Positions 37,960 to 43,935 of a stretch of 64,000 nucleotides of DNA are shown piece by piece (position 1 is the stretch's first letter; each line of letters begins with the position of its first letter). The translations under genes were made by a program, and so were the position numbers. The notes under the pieces were generated by a model. It had not been told where the DNA came from. It saw only the letters and a list, made by a program, of their open reading frames with translations, and ran no database searches. The stretch is from Rhodococcus xishaensis (lineage in GTDB: Bacteria; Actinomycetota; Actinomycetes; Mycobacteriales; Mycobacteriaceae): the NCBI RefSeq assembly GCF_004011825.1, contig NZ_RKLO01000001.1:333575-397574 (forward strand), written 5' to 3'.

Positions 37960-38262
37960 CAGTACCCAGGCGTACTGTTGCGTCTTGGGTTCGTCAGTCA
38001 CGTATAGGACAAATATAGGACGGGCCCAGTCGGGTTCCGAAGTCCCCGAGCCGGGCGACGGATCCGCGCGTGGAGCAAGGAGTATTCGACGATGAACATT
38101 GCGACCACTCCCCACGCCGCACTCCCGCCAGGGTCGTTGTCGTCGGAACCCCGAAGACCGGTTCTGCTTCCGACGACCACGGGATTCGGTGGCTTTCCTC
38201 CGGGCCTCGGATTCAGGTCTTGAACCGTCTCGGGTTCTCGGTTCCTGAGCCCTGCTCTCCAC
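37960..38262 (+). pseudogene. Decayed fourth copy of the secreted Gly/Phe-rich protein gene
   Basis: This stretch aligns with the leader, start and end of the three intact genes at 40.8-42.8 kb. Shared landmarks: CAGGCGTAC, GTCACGTATAGGAC (intact GTCACGTAGAGGAC), GCGACGGATCCGC, GCAAGGAGTATT before ATGAAC, and a 3' part TTGAACCGTCTCGGG. Relative to the intact genes one T is missing after the seventh codon (CCCC-ACGCC for CCCCTCACGCC). This shifts the frame, and most of the signal peptide and repeat region is deleted. A 43-codon frame remains (38092-38223), ending GFGGFPPGLGFRS, like the intact C-termini. Confidence 0.75.
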
Positions 38263-38326: not shown

Positions 38327-39721
38327 GTGACAGTCAGCTTCCTCGAACGTTCGAGGATCGTCGCCAGGCCCGGATGGAGTCGCTGGCTCGTTCCTCCAGC
38401 CGCACTCTCGATACATCTCGCCATCGGATCGACCTACGCCTGGAGCGTCTTCAAGTCCCCACTCGAGACCTCGATGGGCATCTCCGGAACGGCCAGTGCG
38501 CTGCCGTTCACCGTCAGCATCGTGATGCTCGGAGCCTCGGCTGCGTTGTTCGGAACCCGCGTGGACCACAAGGGCCCACGATGGGCCATGGTCGTGGCGA
38601 CCTCATGCTTCTGCAGCGGCTACCTGATCGCCGCCCTCGGGGTATTCATCGAACAGTACTGGCTTGTCGTGTTCGGCTACGGGTTCGTCGGCGGTATCGG
38701 TCTGGGTATCGGGTACATCTCCCCTGTGTCCACCCTGATGAAGTGGTTTCCTGACCGTCCCGGCATGGCGACGGGCATGGCCATCATGGGTTTCGGTGGT
38801 GGCGCGTTGGTAGCTTCGGCGTTGGCCAACAGCCTGCTCGACGGCTTCGGTCGGGGCACGGCGGGAGTTTCGGCGACCCTTCTCGTAATCGGTTGTGCCT
38901 ATGCGGTATTCATGTCGTTGGGTTGGCTGCTGATCCGTGTACCGGCCCCCGACTGGAAGCCTGCCGACTGGGAGCCTGCGCCGCGAAAGGCCGAATCGCC
39001 GGTCATCACGGGGAGCGTCTCAGCGACGAGCGCGATCAAGACGCCCCAGTTCTGGCTGCTTTGGGCGGCCATGTGCTTCAACGTAACTGCGGGAATCGGC
39101 ATTCTCGAGAGGGCAGCACCCATCTTCCAGGATTTCTTCCCCGACGCATCCAGCGCCGCGGCTCTGGCCGTGGCGGCTGCGGGATTCGTGGCGGTCGTCT
39201 CCCTGGCCAACATGGCCGGTCGATTCGGCTGGTCGACGTTGTCCGACGTCCTCGGCCGCAAGAACATGTTCCGGCTCTATCTCGGCGGCGGTGCTCTGCT
39301 GTATCTGACGCTCGCCCTGACCACGAACGCCAACAAGGCGCTGTTTCTTGTCTGCACGATGTTGATCGTGTCCTTCTACGGCGCAGGGTTCGCAACTGTC
39401 CCGGCATACTTACGCGACTTGTTCGGCAGCCGGGAGGTCGGTGCGATTCATGGCAGGTTGCTTACTGCGTGGTCCGCGGCCGGCGTGCTCGGTCCACTCA
39501 TCGTGAACGCTGTCGCGGACTCGCAGCACTCGGCCGGCAAGAGCGGTCCAGATCTCTACATCCTGTCGTTCTCGGTCATGATTGTGCTGCTGATCGTGGG
39601 GTTCGTCTGCAACGAGCTGATTCGGCAGGTCGACACCAAGTACCACGAAGTCGCTCCGGTCAGGGGCGAGGCCCCCGTCGGGGACTGGACTCCACATAGA
39701 GAGGCGGGGCAGGAAACGTGA
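38327..39721 (+). CDS. OFA-type MFS transporter (oxalate/formate antiporter family)
   Basis: 464 residues with about 12 membrane segments. HLAIGSTYAWSVFKSPLETSMG near the N-terminus is the OFA subfamily mark, and GGIGLGIGYISPVSTLMKWFPDRPGMATGMAIMGFGGGALV is the central MFS repeat. NMAGRFGWSTLSDVLGRKNMF is motif A of the second half. Members exchange small carboxylates such as oxalate/formate; some of this type are linked to acetate, lactate or pyruvate. The substrate cannot be read from sequence. GTG start with AAGGGG upstream. Its stop overlaps the start of a 53-residue partner. Confidence 0.88.
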   Translation: MTVSFLERSRIVARPGWSRWLVPPAALSIHLAIGSTYAWSVFKSPLETSMGISGTASALPFTVSIVMLGASAALFGTRVDHKGPRWAMVVATSCFCSGYLIAALGVFIEQYWLVVFGYGFVGGIGLGIGYISPVSTLMKWFPDRPGMATGMAIMGFGGGALVASALANSLLDGFGRGTAGVSATLLVIGCAYAVFMSLGWLLIRVPAPDWKPADWEPAPRKAESPVITGSVSATSAIKTPQFWLLWAAMCFNVTAGIGILERAAPIFQDFFPDASSAAALAVAAAGFVAVVSLANMAGRFGWSTLSDVLGRKNMFRLYLGGGALLYLTLALTTNANKALFLVCTMLIVSFYGAGFATVPAYLRDLFGSREVGAIHGRLLTAWSAAGVLGPLIVNAVADSQHSAGKSGPDLYILSFSVMIVLLIVGFVCNELIRQVDTKYHEVAPVRGEAPVGDWTPHREAGQET

Positions 39722-39879
39722 CAAGCACCAAGCCCAGCACAGCTGCAAAGCCTGACCCCAGGTCCGGCCAACCCGTCAATCGCGGTCTCATCGCCTTGGC
39801 CTGGCTGTCGGTGGCCGTCCCCTTCGCCTACGGCCTGTCGCAGCTCTGCGCGACGGCCTCCCACCTCTTCGGCCACTGA
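39718..39879 (+). CDS. Small one-helix MFS partner (OFA transporter small subunit)
   Basis: 53 residues. The GTG overlaps the transporter stop by GTGA, with AGGAAA a few bases upstream, so translation is coupled. The first 22 residues are polar (STKPSTAAKPDPRSGQPVNRG), followed by one hydrophobic helix (LIALAWLSVAVPFAYGLSQLCAT) and a short HLFGH end. Small proteins of this form are known to follow OFA-type MFS genes and are called MFS transporter small subunits. Its role (stability or regulation) is inferred. Confidence 0.75.
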   Translation: MTSTKPSTAAKPDPRSGQPVNRGLIALAWLSVAVPFAYGLSQLCATASHLFGH

Positions 39880-40510
39880 CAAACGTCGAACAGTTCTGTG
39901 TCCAAGGCGATTTCGATCAGACGATGTGCCCGAACGACGTGGTGGTCGATGTGGACACCGGGTCGGGATCGAACTGACGTAGGGGGTTTCTGCCGACCGA
40001 GGGGGATTGGCTCGGATCATTCGGGCATCTTCGATCGCTACAGCGATGGCGGACGGCTCTGCTCCTTCGTCCAGCGACTCGATCCCGTTGTCGGACAACA
40101 GCACTCTGAGAACCGAAACGACGTCGCGGACGTTGCATGTGTTGACCCCGGTCGCGGTGTTCCGCTTGGCTTGGCGTGATCGTCGTGCAGGTCAGTGGCG
40201 GGGCATCATTCCTGTTGATCTTCACGAGACCGACCTCGCGCTGATCGGGTTCCTGGGCGGCGCCATGATGCTCGACTCGACCGCATCATCCGGGACCTGC
40301 AGCCTGGTGGTTGCCGGGCGCAATCCAGGTACACCAAGCGATGGGATCGTCCGAAAGATGAGGGGACGGAACCAGTCCGTGGACGCGGCCTGACCCTAGT
40401 CGCTCAGCGAGTCAGTGAGACGGTGATCAAGATCGCCGAGAAGATGCGCAAGAGCTTTCCGGCGTCGGCGTGTGGGAGCTGTTGGCGGCGACGGGCGTTG
40501 ACGTGAGATG
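39880..40510. other. Gene-poor stretch without a supported coding region
   Basis: About 630 bases follow the small subunit. Open frames exist on both strands (e.g. 40007-40393 plus, and minus frames at 39917-40225), but none has a ribosome site, a recognisable family or consistent codon bias. A short segment near 40240 (GATCGGGTTCCTGGGCG) resembles one near 42018 (GATCGAGTTCCTGGGCG), so part of it may be older debris of the repeat block downstream. No function is assigned. Confidence 0.5.
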
Positions 40511-40807
40511 CGTCACGGCTGCGAGCGGACCCGTGACCATCCGGGGGCGCCAGAGTGCTGTTTCCGGGGGACTGTTCGGTTCGCTGGGCGGTCGTTTGTG
40601 CTGCTCATCGTGGTACGGCCGGAACCGAAGATCAGAAGGGGTCAGAAATGACTATTGCGCTTGCGCAGCAGGGGATTCCGCCCCGCTGAAGCCCCACGGC
40701 AACAGGCGTACGTTGGGTTTTGGCCCGTCCGTCTCGTAGAGGACGAGTCCCGTCGTTTCCGACGCCTGCCAAGGCGACGGATCCGTATGTGGACCAAGGA
40801 GTATTTG
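40511..40807 (+). promoter_or_regulatory. Conserved structured 5' leader, copy A
   Basis: This leader is repeated upstream of copy C almost base for base over about 300 bases, and upstream of copy B over its last 190. Predicted hairpins in the last 120 bases: CCCACG/CGTTGGG followed by TTTT (about 40693-40721); CTCGT-AGAGG-ACGAG (about 40734-40748); CGTCG/CGACG (about 40752-40764); CGCCT-GCCA-AGGCG (about 40763-40776). AAGGAG then precedes the ATG by 6 bases. The early stem plus T4 looks like an attenuator. No known riboswitch was recognised. Confidence 0.5.
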
Positions 40808-41263
40808 ATGATGAACACAAAGGCCATCCCCTCACGCCGTACTCTCGCCAAGATCGCTGTCGTCGGAGCGCTTGCCGCGCTGCCCCTCGGGCTCGGAGTC
40901 GCGCCGGCCATGGCAGCGCCCAGCGCGCCGGTTTCGGCCCCAGTCAGCAACATTGATCACGGGTATGGGCACGGCTTCGGACACGGCTTCGGACACGGCT
41001 TCGGTCGCGGTGGCTTCGGATCGATCTCGTCGCCAGTCAACGACGTCGCCTACGGCTATGGACCGCACCCCGCCCAGTACGGGGGACCGGGGTTCCACCC
41101 GGGACCGGGACCTGGGTTCGGAGGACCAGGGTTCGGGGGGCCGGGGTTCCGCCCAGGACCGGGCTTTGGACCGGGTTTCGGAGGACCGGGGTTCCGCCCG
41201 GGGCCGGGTTTCGGACCGGGGTTTGGGGGACCGGGGTTCGGGGGGCCGGGGTTCCTGTCCTGA
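40808..41263 (+). CDS. Secreted Gly/Pro/Phe-rich repeat protein, copy A
   Basis: 151 residues, family not recognised. Residues 1-36 form a Sec signal peptide (MMNTKAIPSRRTLAKIAVVGALAALPLGLGVAPAMA) with an AMA cleavage site. The mature part begins APSAPVSAPVSN, then GYGHGFGHGFGHGFGRGGFGSISSPVNDV, then a long run of GPGFGGPGF / GFRPGPGFGPGF repeats to the end. It has no cysteines, few charged residues and a low-complexity make-up, so it is likely disordered or a structural surface material. It is the longest of three tandem paralogues; its Pro-rich tail is unique to this copy. AAGGAG lies 6 bases upstream of the first ATG. Confidence 0.8.
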   Translation: MMNTKAIPSRRTLAKIAVVGALAALPLGLGVAPAMAAPSAPVSAPVSNIDHGYGHGFGHGFGHGFGRGGFGSISSPVNDVAYGYGPHPAQYGGPGFHPGPGPGFGGPGFGGPGFRPGPGFGPGFGGPGFRPGPGFGPGFGGPGFGGPGFLS

Positions 41264-41312
41264 ACAGTTTCGTGTCTCTCGATTCCTGAGCCGCCAGTCG
41301 GCCAGATCATCG

Positions 41313-41363
41313 GGTGTGTCCACCCATCTCGGCTCCCATGCCGCCGAGGTGGGTGGACACACC
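41313..41363 (+). terminator. 20-bp hairpin after copy A
   Basis: Arms at 41313-41332 and 41344-41363 pair over 20 bases with one G-T type mismatch, around an 11-base loop (CTCCCATGCCG). The arm begins GGTGTGTCCACCCA. There is no T-run. It lies 50 bases after the stop. Confidence 0.75.
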
Positions 41364-41557
41364 GCATCCGAGGGACTGTTCGGTTCGCTGATCGAAACTG
41401 GCTATTCCGCTTGCACAGCATGGGGTTCTGCTCCGCTGAAGCCCCACGCCGACAAGGGTACGTTGGGTTTTGGCCCGTCCGTCTCGTAGAGGACGAGTCC
41501 CGTCGGTTCCGACGCCCGCCAAGGCGACGGATCTGAATGTGGACAAAGGAGTAACTG
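41364..41557 (+). promoter_or_regulatory. Conserved structured 5' leader, copy B
   Basis: Shorter than the leaders of A and C (about 70 bases are missing near its 5' end), but the last 120 bases are nearly identical, including CCCACG/CGTTGGG-TTTT, CTCGT-AGAGG-ACGAG, CGTCGG-TT-CCGACG and CGCC/GGCG. AAAGGAG precedes the ATG at 41558. Confidence 0.45.
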
Positions 41558-41875
41558 ATGATGAAGACAAAGGCCATCGCCTCACGTCGTACTCTCGCCA
41601 AGATCGCTGTCGTCGGAGCGCTTGCTGCGCTGCCCCTCGGACTCGGAGTCGCGCCGGCCGTGGCAGCGCCCAGCGCGCCGGTCTCGGCGCCGATCAACGA
41701 CGTCCGTCATGGCTTCGGGCATGGCTTCGGGCATGGCTTTGGAGGCGGCTTCGGATCGATCTCGGCACCAGTCAACAACGTCGATCGTCATGGCTACGGT
41801 CCGGAGCTCGCCAGAGGACCCTTCGGGGGGCCGTGGGGATCAGGCCCTCCCGGGCAACTATTCGGATCCCTGTAG
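41558..41875 (+). CDS. Secreted Gly/Phe/His-rich repeat protein, copy B
   Basis: 105 residues, the shortest intact paralogue. The signal peptide differs from copy A by a few residues (MMKTKAIASRRTLAKIAVVGALAALPLGLGVAPAVA). The mature region reads APSAPVSAPINDVRHGFGHGFGHGFGGGFGSISAPVNNVDRHGYGPE and ends GPPGQLFGSL. It keeps the HGFGHGFG motif and one GFGSISAPxNNV module. No homologue of known function was recognised. His-Gly-Phe repeats could bind metal or polymerise; both are speculation. Confidence 0.78.
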   Translation: MMKTKAIASRRTLAKIAVVGALAALPLGLGVAPAVAAPSAPVSAPINDVRHGFGHGFGHGFGGGFGSISAPVNNVDRHGYGPELARGPFGGPWGSGPPGQLFGSL

Positions 41876-41938
41876 TGGACCGTCCCGGGTCTCTCGATCC
41901 CTGGGCCGGCCCTGTTCTCGGGTGTGTTCACCCCTATC

Positions 41939-41974
41939 GCCTCCCATGCCGCCGAATCGGCAGGCATGGGAGGC
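41939..41974 (+). terminator. Hairpin after copy B
   Basis: GCCTCCCATGCC (41939-41950) and GGCATGGGAGGC (41963-41974) are perfect 12-bp complements; the loop itself contains CCGAATCGG, which can pair internally. It lies about 65 bases past the stop. Confidence 0.75.
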
Positions 41975-42091
41975 TGGCGATCGCTTGGCTACGAGCCCGG
42001 TCTCACCCCGATCGAGTTCCTGGGCGCGGACCAAGCGTGGCGTCGACGTGACTGCGGCGGGTTGCGGCCGCGGGCGTGATTCGGTGATCTT

Positions 42092-42389
42092 CGTCACGGC
42101 TGCGAGCGTCGTCCGGTGACCTTCGAGGGGCGCCCGAGGACCGTATCGGGGGAACTGTTCGTTCGTGTAGCGAGCGTTTGCGCTGATCATCGCGGTGCGG
42201 CGGGAACCGAAGATCAGATGGGGTCCGAAACGGCTATTGCGCTTGCGCGGCATGGGATTCCGACCCAGTGAAGCCCACCGTCGACAGGCGTACGGTGGGT
42301 TTTGGCCCGTCCGTCACGTAGAGGACGAGTCCCGTCGGTTCCGACGCCCGCCAAGGCGACGGATCCGCATGTGGACCAAGGAGTATTTG
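42092..42389 (+). promoter_or_regulatory. Conserved structured 5' leader, copy C
   Basis: It matches the leader of copy A from CGTCACGGCTGCGAGCG (42092; 40511 in A) to the ATG. Its first late hairpin is the best of the three: CCCACCGT (42274-42281) pairs fully with ACGGTGGG (42292-42299) and is followed by TTTT (42300-42303), the layout of a small intrinsic terminator. CGTCGG-TT-CCGACG follows at 42333-42346. Confidence 0.5.
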
Positions 42390-42776
42390 ATGATGAACAC
42401 AAAGGCCATCCCCTCACGCCGTACTCTCGCCAAGATCGCTGTCGTCGGAGCGCTAGCCGCGCTGCCCCTCGGACTCGGGGTCGCGCCGGCCATGGCAGCG
42501 CCCAGCGCGCCGGCTTCGGCACCGATCAACGACGTCCGTCATGGCTTCGGGCACGGCTTCGGATCGATCTCGGCACCAGCCAACAATGTCGATCGTCACG
42601 GCTTCGGGCGCGGTAGCTTCGGATCGATCTCGGCGCCAATCAACGACGCCCGGTTCGGCTTCGGGCACGGCTTCGGATCGATCTCGGCGCCGATCAACGA
42701 CGTCAGTCACGGCTATGGACACCATGGCTATGGAGGACACCACGGCTACGGAAACGAGTTCGGTAGGTTCTGGTGA
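42390..42776 (+). CDS. Secreted Gly/Phe/His-rich repeat protein, copy C
   Basis: 128 residues. The signal peptide is identical to copy A through AMA. The mature region is built from three GFGSISAPxNDV-type modules separated by HGFGHGFG, HGFGRGS and FGFGHG, and ends in a His/Tyr/Gly tail (HGYGHHGYGGHHGYGNEFGRFW). The three modules are also direct DNA repeats (TTCGGATCGATCTCGGC near 42559, 42618 and 42675), showing that the copies change length by repeat gain and loss. Function unknown; predicted exported and surface-associated or released. AAGGAG precedes the ATG by 6 bases. Confidence 0.8.
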   Translation: MMNTKAIPSRRTLAKIAVVGALAALPLGLGVAPAMAAPSAPASAPINDVRHGFGHGFGSISAPANNVDRHGFGRGSFGSISAPINDARFGFGHGFGSISAPINDVSHGYGHHGYGGHHGYGNEFGRFW

Positions 42777-42907
42777 CCGGGGTTCCACTCGGGACCACGG
42801 AGATTCGGAGGCTTCAACCCGGCCACGGATTCCTGTCCTGAACCGTCTCGGGTCTCTCGATTGCTGAGCCGGTGGCTGGCCCTTTCGTCGGGCACGTCCA
42901 CCCACCT

Positions 42908-42945
42908 CGGCTCCCATGCCGCCGAATCGGCAGGCATGGGAGCCG
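42908..42945 (+). terminator. Hairpin after copy C
   Basis: CGGCTCCCATGCC (42908-42920) pairs perfectly with GGCATGGGAGCCG (42933-42945), with CCGAATCGG-type sequence in the loop as after copy B. It ends the tandem block about 130 bases past the stop. Confidence 0.75.
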
Positions 42946-43101
42946 GAGCTTCTAGTTCGACGAGTCCGTCCGCGTACGAACGGTCTTCCGCGAACGAAGG
43001 GCGGACGGCGGAGGTACGACGCGCGGTCCGTTCACCGAAGCTGCACCGACGCGACACGCGGTTGACGCCCTACCGCCGTTCGGGGGCGATAGACCTGCGC
43101 C

Positions 43102-43935
43102 ATGACAACTTCGTCGTTCGTCGAAACCGTCTGTTCTGCGCCGGAACCCGGCCTCGCCACGAGCGGGTCGCGCTATTCCCTCCTCGTCTCCTCTGACCGT
43201 GAGCACCGAGCGGCTGCGCAGTGCCTGCGTTACCGCGTGTTCTCCACCGAACCCGGCTTCGTGATCCCCCGGTCGAAGGACGGGCGCGACGCCGATAGGT
43301 TCGACGAGTTCTGCGACCATCTGCTGGTCCGCGACAACGCCTCGGGCGACTTCGTCGGCTGCTATCGCATGCTCTCGCCGGACCGTGCGCGCGCGGCCGG
43401 CGGCTACTACACCGGCACTGAGTTCGACCTTTCCATGCTCGACCCCGCTGCCCAGCGGGTCGTGGAGATGGGGCGCGCGTGCGTGGATCCGGCGCACCGC
43501 TCGGGATCCGTTCTCACGCTGATGTGGGCAGGCATCTTCCACTACCTCCAACTCACCGGTCACCACACTGTCATGGGCTGTGTCTCGGTGCCGATGCAGG
43601 ACAGGCCCGATGCTGTCGCCGGCGCGAACGTGCGGGCGGTGCGCGACTTCCTTCTCGATCGCCACGCCGTCGACCGGGCACGGTGGGTGCGGCCGCTACG
43701 CCCGGTGCGGGTGGAGGGGCGCTCGCTCGACGACATCGCGCCGGCTCAACGTCCGGCGGTGCCTCCCCTGCTGCGCGGCTACCTGCGGTTGGGTGCGCGG
43801 ATCTGCGGCGAACCTGCGCACGATCCTGACTTCGGAGTCGCGGACTTCGTGGCGGTCCAGAGGCTCGACGATGCCGACACCCGCTACCTCGAGCGGTTAC
43901 AGCGTGCGTCGGCGGCGATCGAGGTCGCGGCGTGA
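43102..43935 (+). CDS. OlsB-like ornithine-acyl-ACP N-acyltransferase
   Basis: 277 residues of the acyl-homoserine-lactone-synthase-like GNAT fold used by OlsB, which N-acylates ornithine to make lyso-ornithine lipid. Seen: CLRYRVFSTEPGF (about 48-60), DRFDEFCDHLLVRDNASGDFVGCYRMLSP (about 73-101), VVEMGRACVDPAHRSGSVLTLMWAGIFHYLQLTGHHTVMGCVSVPM. The C-terminal region includes PPLLRGYLRLGARICGEPAHDPDFGVADFVAVQRL, typical of OlsB. Its stop overlaps the next acyltransferase by GTGA, matching the usual olsB-olsA pairing. Substrate choice is inferred from that pairing. M. tuberculosis has the same pair as Rv3027c/Rv3026c. Confidence 0.78.
   Translation: MTTSSFVETVCSAPEPGLATSGSRYSLLVSSDREHRAAAQCLRYRVFSTEPGFVIPRSKDGRDADRFDEFCDHLLVRDNASGDFVGCYRMLSPDRARAAGGYYTGTEFDLSMLDPAAQRVVEMGRACVDPAHRSGSVLTLMWAGIFHYLQLTGHHTVMGCVSVPMQDRPDAVAGANVRAVRDFLLDRHAVDRARWVRPLRPVRVEGRSLDDIAPAQRPAVPPLLRGYLRLGARICGEPAHDPDFGVADFVAVQRLDDADTRYLERLQRASAAIEVAA

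Follow-up and report, generated by a model that had tools for sequence, protein, structure and literature searches.

A stretch of 64,000 nucleotides (nt) of the Rhodococcus xishaensis genome (G000:C1:333575-397574; genome size, 3.7 Mb), here referred to as the window, holds a tandem array of three plus-strand genes for small proteins that share a leader and a signal peptide and differ in their mature tails. Unit 1 (positions 40808..41263; 151 amino acids [aa]) encodes the signal, HGFG repeats, a GFGSISSPVND module, and a GPGF/RPGPGF tail with the C terminus GFLS. Unit 2 (41558..41875; 105 aa) encodes the signal, HGFG repeats, one GFGSISAP, and the tail GPPGQLFGSL, in which serine is penultimate, and unit 3 (42390..42776; 128 aa) has three GFGSISAPxN repeats and an HHGYG tail after the signal and ends in NEFGRFW, with no FGS tag. 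The signal peptides are nearly identical, with the C-terminal part ...GVAPA(M/V)AAPSAP, and by eye all three N termini have a positive start, a hydrophobic core, and an AxA-type site; an RR in the signal region leaves the twin-arginine translocation route open. A 300-nt block comprising the leader and the start of the signal is repeated at 40565, 41315, and 42147, copies 2 and 3 being 70% and 88% identical to copy 1. A previous reading of this DNA from its letters alone (the sequence-only reading) had described three tandem units with a conserved leader, a near-invariant signal, the mature motifs HGFGHGFG, GFGSISAPxND, and GPGFGGPGF, and a strong hairpin each, and all of these are present: within the window the leaders are 93 to 95% identical to one another over 103 nt, the signal codons are 94 to 97% identical, and the hairpins fold well beyond expectation, as detailed below. 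It had also recognized no known family, and indeed neither Pfam nor NCBIfam gave a family for units 1 to 3 at E ≤ 0.1. At E ≤ 1, units 1 and 2 have no Pfam match and unit 3 has one unrelated match (0.46), and a PDB sequence search returned nothing. There was likewise no match in plasmid records, and none of 49 stretches of viral contigs that fit a pattern was confirmed.

Each unit looks like a transcription unit of its own. We treated the leader, about 104 nt long, as a promoter plus 5′ untranslated region (UTR); its plus-strand copies lie at 40704..40807, 41454..41557, and 42286..42389 for units 1, 2, and 3. The unit 1 copy has a candidate −10 element (TACGTT, 40709-40714), a 5′ UTR hairpin, and an AAGGAG ribosome-binding site. 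Actinobacterial −10 elements follow the consensus TANNNT, which the leader motif TACNNT fits; AAGGAG stands 6 nt 5′ of the ATG in each unit, and the core 18-mer of the leader occurs three times in the window (at ≤3 mismatches) versus 0.06 expected. The 5′ UTR hairpin folds with z scores of −1.6 to −2.2 in units 1 to 3. For 11 leaders, RNAalifold predicted 17 pairs, of which one shows a two-sided change; the covariation term is +0.32, which gives no covariation support. With no Rfam match for the leader either, a riboswitch was rejected. At E ≤ 1, Rfam placed only a microRNA model, on the hairpin of unit 1; its 30.1 bits fall short of the gathering score of 83, and it was discarded.

Predicted plus-strand hairpins follow unit 1 (41313..41363; a 21-bp stem without a T-tract), unit 2 (41939..41974), and unit 3 (42907..42946). 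The folding energies of the stretches around them are −50.6, −34.6, and −36.5 kcal/mol (z scores of −6.8, −5.4, and −5.8), and a pattern scan for terminators gave no T-tract-bearing candidate at any of the three. Rhodococcus spongiicola, the sister species, has a hairpin of partly different sequence at the same place as that of unit 1 (L014:3800-3850). Two GTGA-N6-TCAC boxes, which we take to be CRP/GlxR-like, lie some 200 bp 5′ of leader 1 (40503..40516) and leader 3 (42084..42097), without assigned strand, and both have counterparts in R. spongiicola. The whole 64-kb window contains only these two, versus 0.35 expected from 20 mononucleotide shuffles.

R. spongiicola (G012), placed with R. 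xishaensis in the R. equi sublineage in a published account (PMC11893733), carries the same three genes in the same order at the same place, and by tail type each of them has one counterpart in the window. Over the 3′-terminal 75 nt of each gene, DNA identity is 0.79 to 0.86 between orthologues versus 0.38 to 0.54 between paralogues within a species, and mean tail identity is 83% for orthologues and 41 to 51% for paralogues; the tails were thus already distinct before the species split. For the mature part, the ratio of nonsynonymous to synonymous substitution rates (dN/dS) is 0.19 when pooled and 0.18, 0.13, and 0.26 for units 1 to 3, compared with 0.19 for the neighboring olsB-like gene and 0.13 for a cysteine desulfurase gene. 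Because the dN/dS is purifying and the tails are conserved orthologue by orthologue, these are constrained genes and not decaying repeats, and substitution is not diversifying their tails. The sequence-only reading had called the mature part rapidly changing; this holds for repeat number, with one, one, and three FGSIS modules in units 1 to 3 of the window versus two, four, and five in R. spongiicola, and fails for substitution. The tandem exported family that it had described, alike in leader and signal and unequal in repeat number, is supported, and of the signs of decay that it had named, neither a lack of homologues nor broken frames was seen, all six reading frames in the two species being intact.

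The signal region behaves differently from the tails. Its DNA identity is 0.94 to 0.97 within the window array and 0.91 to 0.96 within R. spongiicola, versus 0.90 to 0.91 for orthologues and 0.88 to 0.93 for other cross-species pairs (within-species means of 0.956 and 0.928 versus 0.903 for orthologues). Synonymous divergence (dS) agrees, at 0.09 to 0.12 within the window array, 0.09 to 0.19 within R. spongiicola, and 0.19 to 0.27 between orthologues, in a small sample of 35 to 36 synonymous sites per pair; for the olsB-like and cysteine desulfurase neighbors, dS between the species is 0.31 to 0.34. These values, which show the signals of one species to be closer to each other than orthologous signals are, suggest that the copies exchange sequence in this region, with modest evidence for within-species homogenization. 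Some signal pairs across the species differ no more than paralogues do (x2-s1; dS, 0.088). Exchange does not appear to extend to the leader: leader identity within species (0.939 and 0.927) is not above that of orthologues (0.944), so we dropped leader homogenization and regard the leader as simply conserved.

Relatives with the same leader are few. In the genus, a leader search matched 2 of 14 genomes (G000 and G012), and a single-protein search matched 5 of 14 at E ≤ 0.001, three of which (G003, G006, and G008) reflect signal-region likeness to different, His-rich proteins. Small exported His-rich proteins (HHHHGHH ... MQRDQQGNWHWMC) were seen in genus-mates at loci L006, L007, L022, and L026 (minus strand) and L008 (plus strand), several of them, by eye, beside a dnaE-like gene; they are possibly metal binding. 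A covariance model built from 10 leaders was run, with stricter filters, on 301 family genomes and at E ≤ 0.01 matched 4 of them at 12 places. Ten of these places precede such genes and two are relics: three genes and one relic each in G000 and G012 and two genes each in G117 and G139. The latter two genomes, of two species, belong to genus g23, in which 2 of 28 genomes match by protein at E ≤ 1e-4. Their tandem pairs encode GFGGPHGFGGP and GPGFHPGP proteins, with LGSL or FGSL as the end of the second protein in a pair (FGSL in G139), and no GTGA-N6-TCAC box was found in the stretches scanned around them.

A larger group of candidate relatives emerged from genus g22, which we take to be Nocardia. 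The array profile matched weakly there, and six translated loci gave three FGSS, one FGSVD, and two TGSAF ends. A profile of four of these proteins matched 111 of 118 g22 genomes at E ≤ 1e-5, and 28 of its best 30 loci end in FGSS and two in FGSVD, a share that is not an unbiased rate because the profile contains the tail. From this genus we also made an 18-sequence profile (A8), run on 16 chosen genomes of genera g1, g15, g21, and g23, and a mixed profile (A9) was assembled that includes two g23 genes along with the unit 2 genes of the window and of R. spongiicola. At E ≤ 1e-8, A9 had matches in 81 of the 401 family genomes, spread over 9 of 31 genera; some of these matches, only part of which were checked, are His-rich or TGSAF proteins. 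Its best 30 loci, of which several repeat best-30 loci of the g22 profile and two are array genes, comprise 19 FGSS, 4 FGSL, and 7 other ends. In a sample of 30 genomes, most of them from other genera, A9 matched seven at E ≤ 1e-5, and 10 translated loci gave two FGSS/FGS ends, one LGSS end, four proteins of Rpf type by eye, and three others. FGS(S/L) ends occur in 64 of the 4,668 open reading frames (ORFs) of at least 60 aa in the sequence gathered, with overlapping loci counted repeatedly, and all 40 distinct FGS(S/L)-ending ORFs among the matches listed are of the small exported low-complexity kind. Representatives of the g22 set that were tested match no Pfam or NCBIfam model at cutoff, and in titles, abstracts, and term counts, with few subscription journals covered, we found no description of these proteins or of the FGSS tail.

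Within g22, at six loci (L082, L083, L085, L087, L096, and L097), the gene for the FGSS protein is preceded, at a distance of about 120 bp, by one for an exported W/Y/P-rich protein that itself ends in PGWFGSS. TGSAF is the common end of four low-complexity exported g22 proteins (L074, L075, L076, and L078). Locus L144 (minus strand), from a 66%-complete genome of genus g14, has two further FGSS-ending ORFs rich in WNN/WDR. Three lines were set aside. The array profile alone matched 16 of 401 family genomes, much of it signal-peptide likeness, and gives no membership count; an order-level search matched 4 of 397 genomes, namely, the array's own and three of g22, whose four proteins all end in TGSAF and are not counted as relatives; and a composition test on ORF ends passed 56% of the background, does not discriminate, and carries no weight.

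We consider it likely, though not settled, that the array belongs to this wider FGS(S/L) set. The three array genes are the top three A8 matches in G000 (3.2e-8, 6.0e-8, and 2.4e-7; next match, 1.3e-4) and again in G012 (next match, 5.3e-4). In hhalign comparisons, array alignments match A8 at 6e-14 and 6e-13, and the alignment runs past the cleavage site into NDVRH/TEVRH. In L110, L112, and L115, the A8 match ends short of the tail, and the tail is an independent agreement there.

Several results pull the other way. Unrelated signal peptides also score, which leaves membership with moderate support only: Rpf-type transglycosylase and NlpC/P60 controls, chosen from among the A8/A9 matches, reach 1.2e-8 and 2.2e-8 against A8, and an Rpf control reaches 3.6e-8 against the array alignment, in matches confined to the signal region or extending no more than a few residues past it. 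The g23 pairs score only 1.9e-6 to 2.1e-5 against A8; this is no better than an unrelated esterase (PF00756) from another g23 genome (7.3e-7), so the g23 pairs do not rise above the signal-peptide background. Among 22 translated nonarray loci from the A8 search, four end in FGSS, FGS, or FGSL (L110, L111, L112, and L115); Rpf-type, NlpC/P60, esterase, and His-rich proteins are among the remaining 18. The C-terminal counts are also partly circular, as the profiles held the tail and only the best-scoring loci were fetched. Of the three window genes, one carries the exact FGS(S/L) end: unit 2 has LFGSL, the GFLS of unit 1 is degenerate, and the FGRFW of unit 3 lacks it. In R. spongiicola, the orthologue of unit 1 ends in GFGS, and that of unit 2 ends in LGSLS, which lacks a comparable penultimate serine.

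Some of these observations feed a rival account, that the array is a separate lineage-specific family whose FGSS likeness stems from a convergent signal peptide and composition and to which a C-terminal lipidation idea would not apply. The signal-peptide background in profile and hhalign scores and the restriction of the exact end to unit 2 favor it. The similarity at NDVRH/TEVRH beyond the cleavage site, the top-three ranking under A8 in both g1 genomes that hold the array, and the FGSL ends of unit 2 and of G139 speak against it, and on balance we judge a separate family somewhat unlikely.

The mature chains are 22 to 37% Gly, 9 to 13% Phe, and 5 to 10% His, with no Cys and a net charge of 0 or +1. 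A low-confidence AlphaFold2 model of unit 3, the one unit modeled, shows no fold, as of a disordered chain; from an input of only six sequences, it has a mean predicted local distance difference test score of 44.6 and a helix only at residues 9 to 23, in the signal region. The composition would fit multivalent self-association, and among possible roles, one at the surface or outside the cell is the most likely. As an explanation of the whole, membership of the wider set included, we favor tentatively, at a little short of an even chance, exported, disordered Gly/aromatic/His surface proteins whose tagged members are O-mycoloylated at the penultimate Ser. The surface or extracellular half of what the sequence-only reading had proposed, a diversifying material, survives as the likeliest class; diversification by substitution is not supported, given the dN/dS of 0.19 and the tail identities.

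Under this surface-protein proposal, each unit, behind its conserved leader, would be transcribed separately, and the signal region would be kept uniform by copy exchange. The exported chains, Gly spacers with Phe, Tyr, and His, would be intrinsically disordered, would be displayed at the outer (mycolic acid) surface or in an extracellular matrix, and would self-associate through their aromatic and His residues. In tagged members (unit 2 and, in degenerate form, unit 1), a Cmt1/MytC-type transferase would probably esterify the penultimate Ser with a mycolic acid and so help to hold the chain in the mycomembrane; unit 3, which has no tag, would be carried by association or released.

The idea of a tag comes from Ser at position −2 in the recurring end, as in PorH and ProtX, together with the Cmt1 orthologues stated for Nocardia and Rhodococcus (PMC11066868). 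In Corynebacterium glutamicum, mycoloylated residues are reported as penultimate in PorH (Ser56 of 57; C terminus NFSS) and ProtX (Ser37 of 38), and PorB likewise ends in NFSS (PMC5310785). PorB is described as modified at Ser-7 and Ser-98 (PMC11066868), the latter of which we take as penultimate if a 27-residue signal leaves the 126-residue precursor; PorA is reported to be modified at Ser15. PorH and ProtX are reported to be cell-wall linked (preprint PMC12632848), and for PorB and PorC, mycoloylation reportedly favors association. In its boldest form, the proposal is that FGS(S/L)-COOH is a C-terminal lipidation tag in Nocardia and Rhodococcus, that a Cmt1-type transferase mycoloylates its penultimate Ser and so fixes a large uncatalogued coat of disordered, aromatic-rich sticker-and-spacer proteins, and that the Rhodococcus arrays are GF/GPGF-rich variants mixing tagged and untagged chains; we regard this as speculative and rather doubtful as a whole. 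Published work counts against it on two points. The mapped O-mycoloylation sites are reported to follow no strict consensus, lying in flexible Gly/Ser/Ala-rich surroundings, and PorH-S56A reportedly stays envelope associated, surface exposure being lost only when PorA Ser15 is changed as well. A C-terminal mycolate thus need not be the anchor, and the PorH-S56A results lower the standing of the tag reading.

Two other functions can be set beside surface display. The HG-rich chains could be metal-binding exported proteins that buffer or scavenge extracellular Cu, Zn, or Ni, as might suit their His content, their lack of Cys, and the other small exported His-rich proteins of the genus. The GPGF tail of unit 1 and the g23 relatives are, however, Gly/Pro/Phe rich with few His, and the three neighbors scanned (a major facilitator superfamily [MFS] transporter, a small subunit, and an acyltransferase) offer no metal pointer; we consider metal binding unlikely. 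Secreted antimicrobial or otherwise bioactive peptides, with the repeats as multiple peptide copies in a precursor, would agree with small, exported, Gly-rich, tandem proteins with a repeated module, but the tails are conserved rather than divergent and the scanned neighbors include no immunity or maturation gene, although no search was aimed at such genes, and this account seems quite improbable. Functionless decaying repeats, to which only the gene-less relic of a fourth leader points (37968..38096, plus strand; upstream of the MFS gene and also present in R. spongiicola), are barely credible beside a dN/dS of 0.19, intact frames in six of six genes, and conserved tails.

As for the neighbors themselves, a 53-aa ORF (39718-39879) directly 3′ of the MFS transporter gene (38327-39721) matches the “MFS transporter small subunit” domain (NF047966; 49.6 bits versus a cutoff of 24). 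The acyltransferase gene (43102-43935) adjoins the array, and its product resembles OlsB (ornithine N-acyltransferase) at 129 bits, under the curated cutoff of 320.

To our knowledge, little is known of mycomembrane proteins outside Corynebacterium and Mycobacterium. The set described here is widespread and often multicopy in g22 and related genera, and its four-residue C terminus offers a sequence handle on possible mycomembrane display. The array itself is a case in which export and regulatory parts are kept alike and functional tails distinct. The extent of protein O-mycoloylation beyond C. glutamicum has been posed as an open question (PMC11066868), and its breadth becomes testable on short, defined tails.

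Among known systems, the chaplins and rodlins of Streptomyces are small exported actinobacterial proteins that assemble at the surface; the array proteins differ in having no chaplin or rodlin match in Pfam, as the sequence-only reading had anticipated from motifs. Squid-beak histidine-rich proteins and suckerins are eukaryotic proteins whose Gly-His-aromatic repeats coacervate, and their resemblance to the array is an analogy of composition only. The O-mycoloylated PorH, ProtX, and PorB of C. glutamicum are, like the array proteins, small exported proteins of mycolic acid bacteria (PMC5310785, PMC11066868, PMC12632848, PMC9671496). Their penultimate-Ser C termini (NFSS in PorH and PorB) resemble FGSS/FGSL, a likeness at the level of the ends, and genes are paired there too (PorA/PorH and PorB/PorC). 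In the array, unit 2 has such a penultimate Ser, and units 1 and 3 do not. Unlike the array proteins, PorH, ProtX, and PorB are described as alpha-helical, a feature not seen in the mature part of the low-confidence unit 3 model, and PorA, PorH, and ProtX are reported to lack a classical signal peptide. Relative to the g22 FGSS proteins, the array has its own leader, found only in G000, G012, G117, and G139, and its mature chains are GF/GPGF rich, whereas those of g22 are rich in W, D, R, H, and N. The two nevertheless have in common a signal peptide, a TEVRH-like mature start, low complexity, tandem pairs in some loci, and a C-terminal FGS, of which two of the three window genes lack the exact form.

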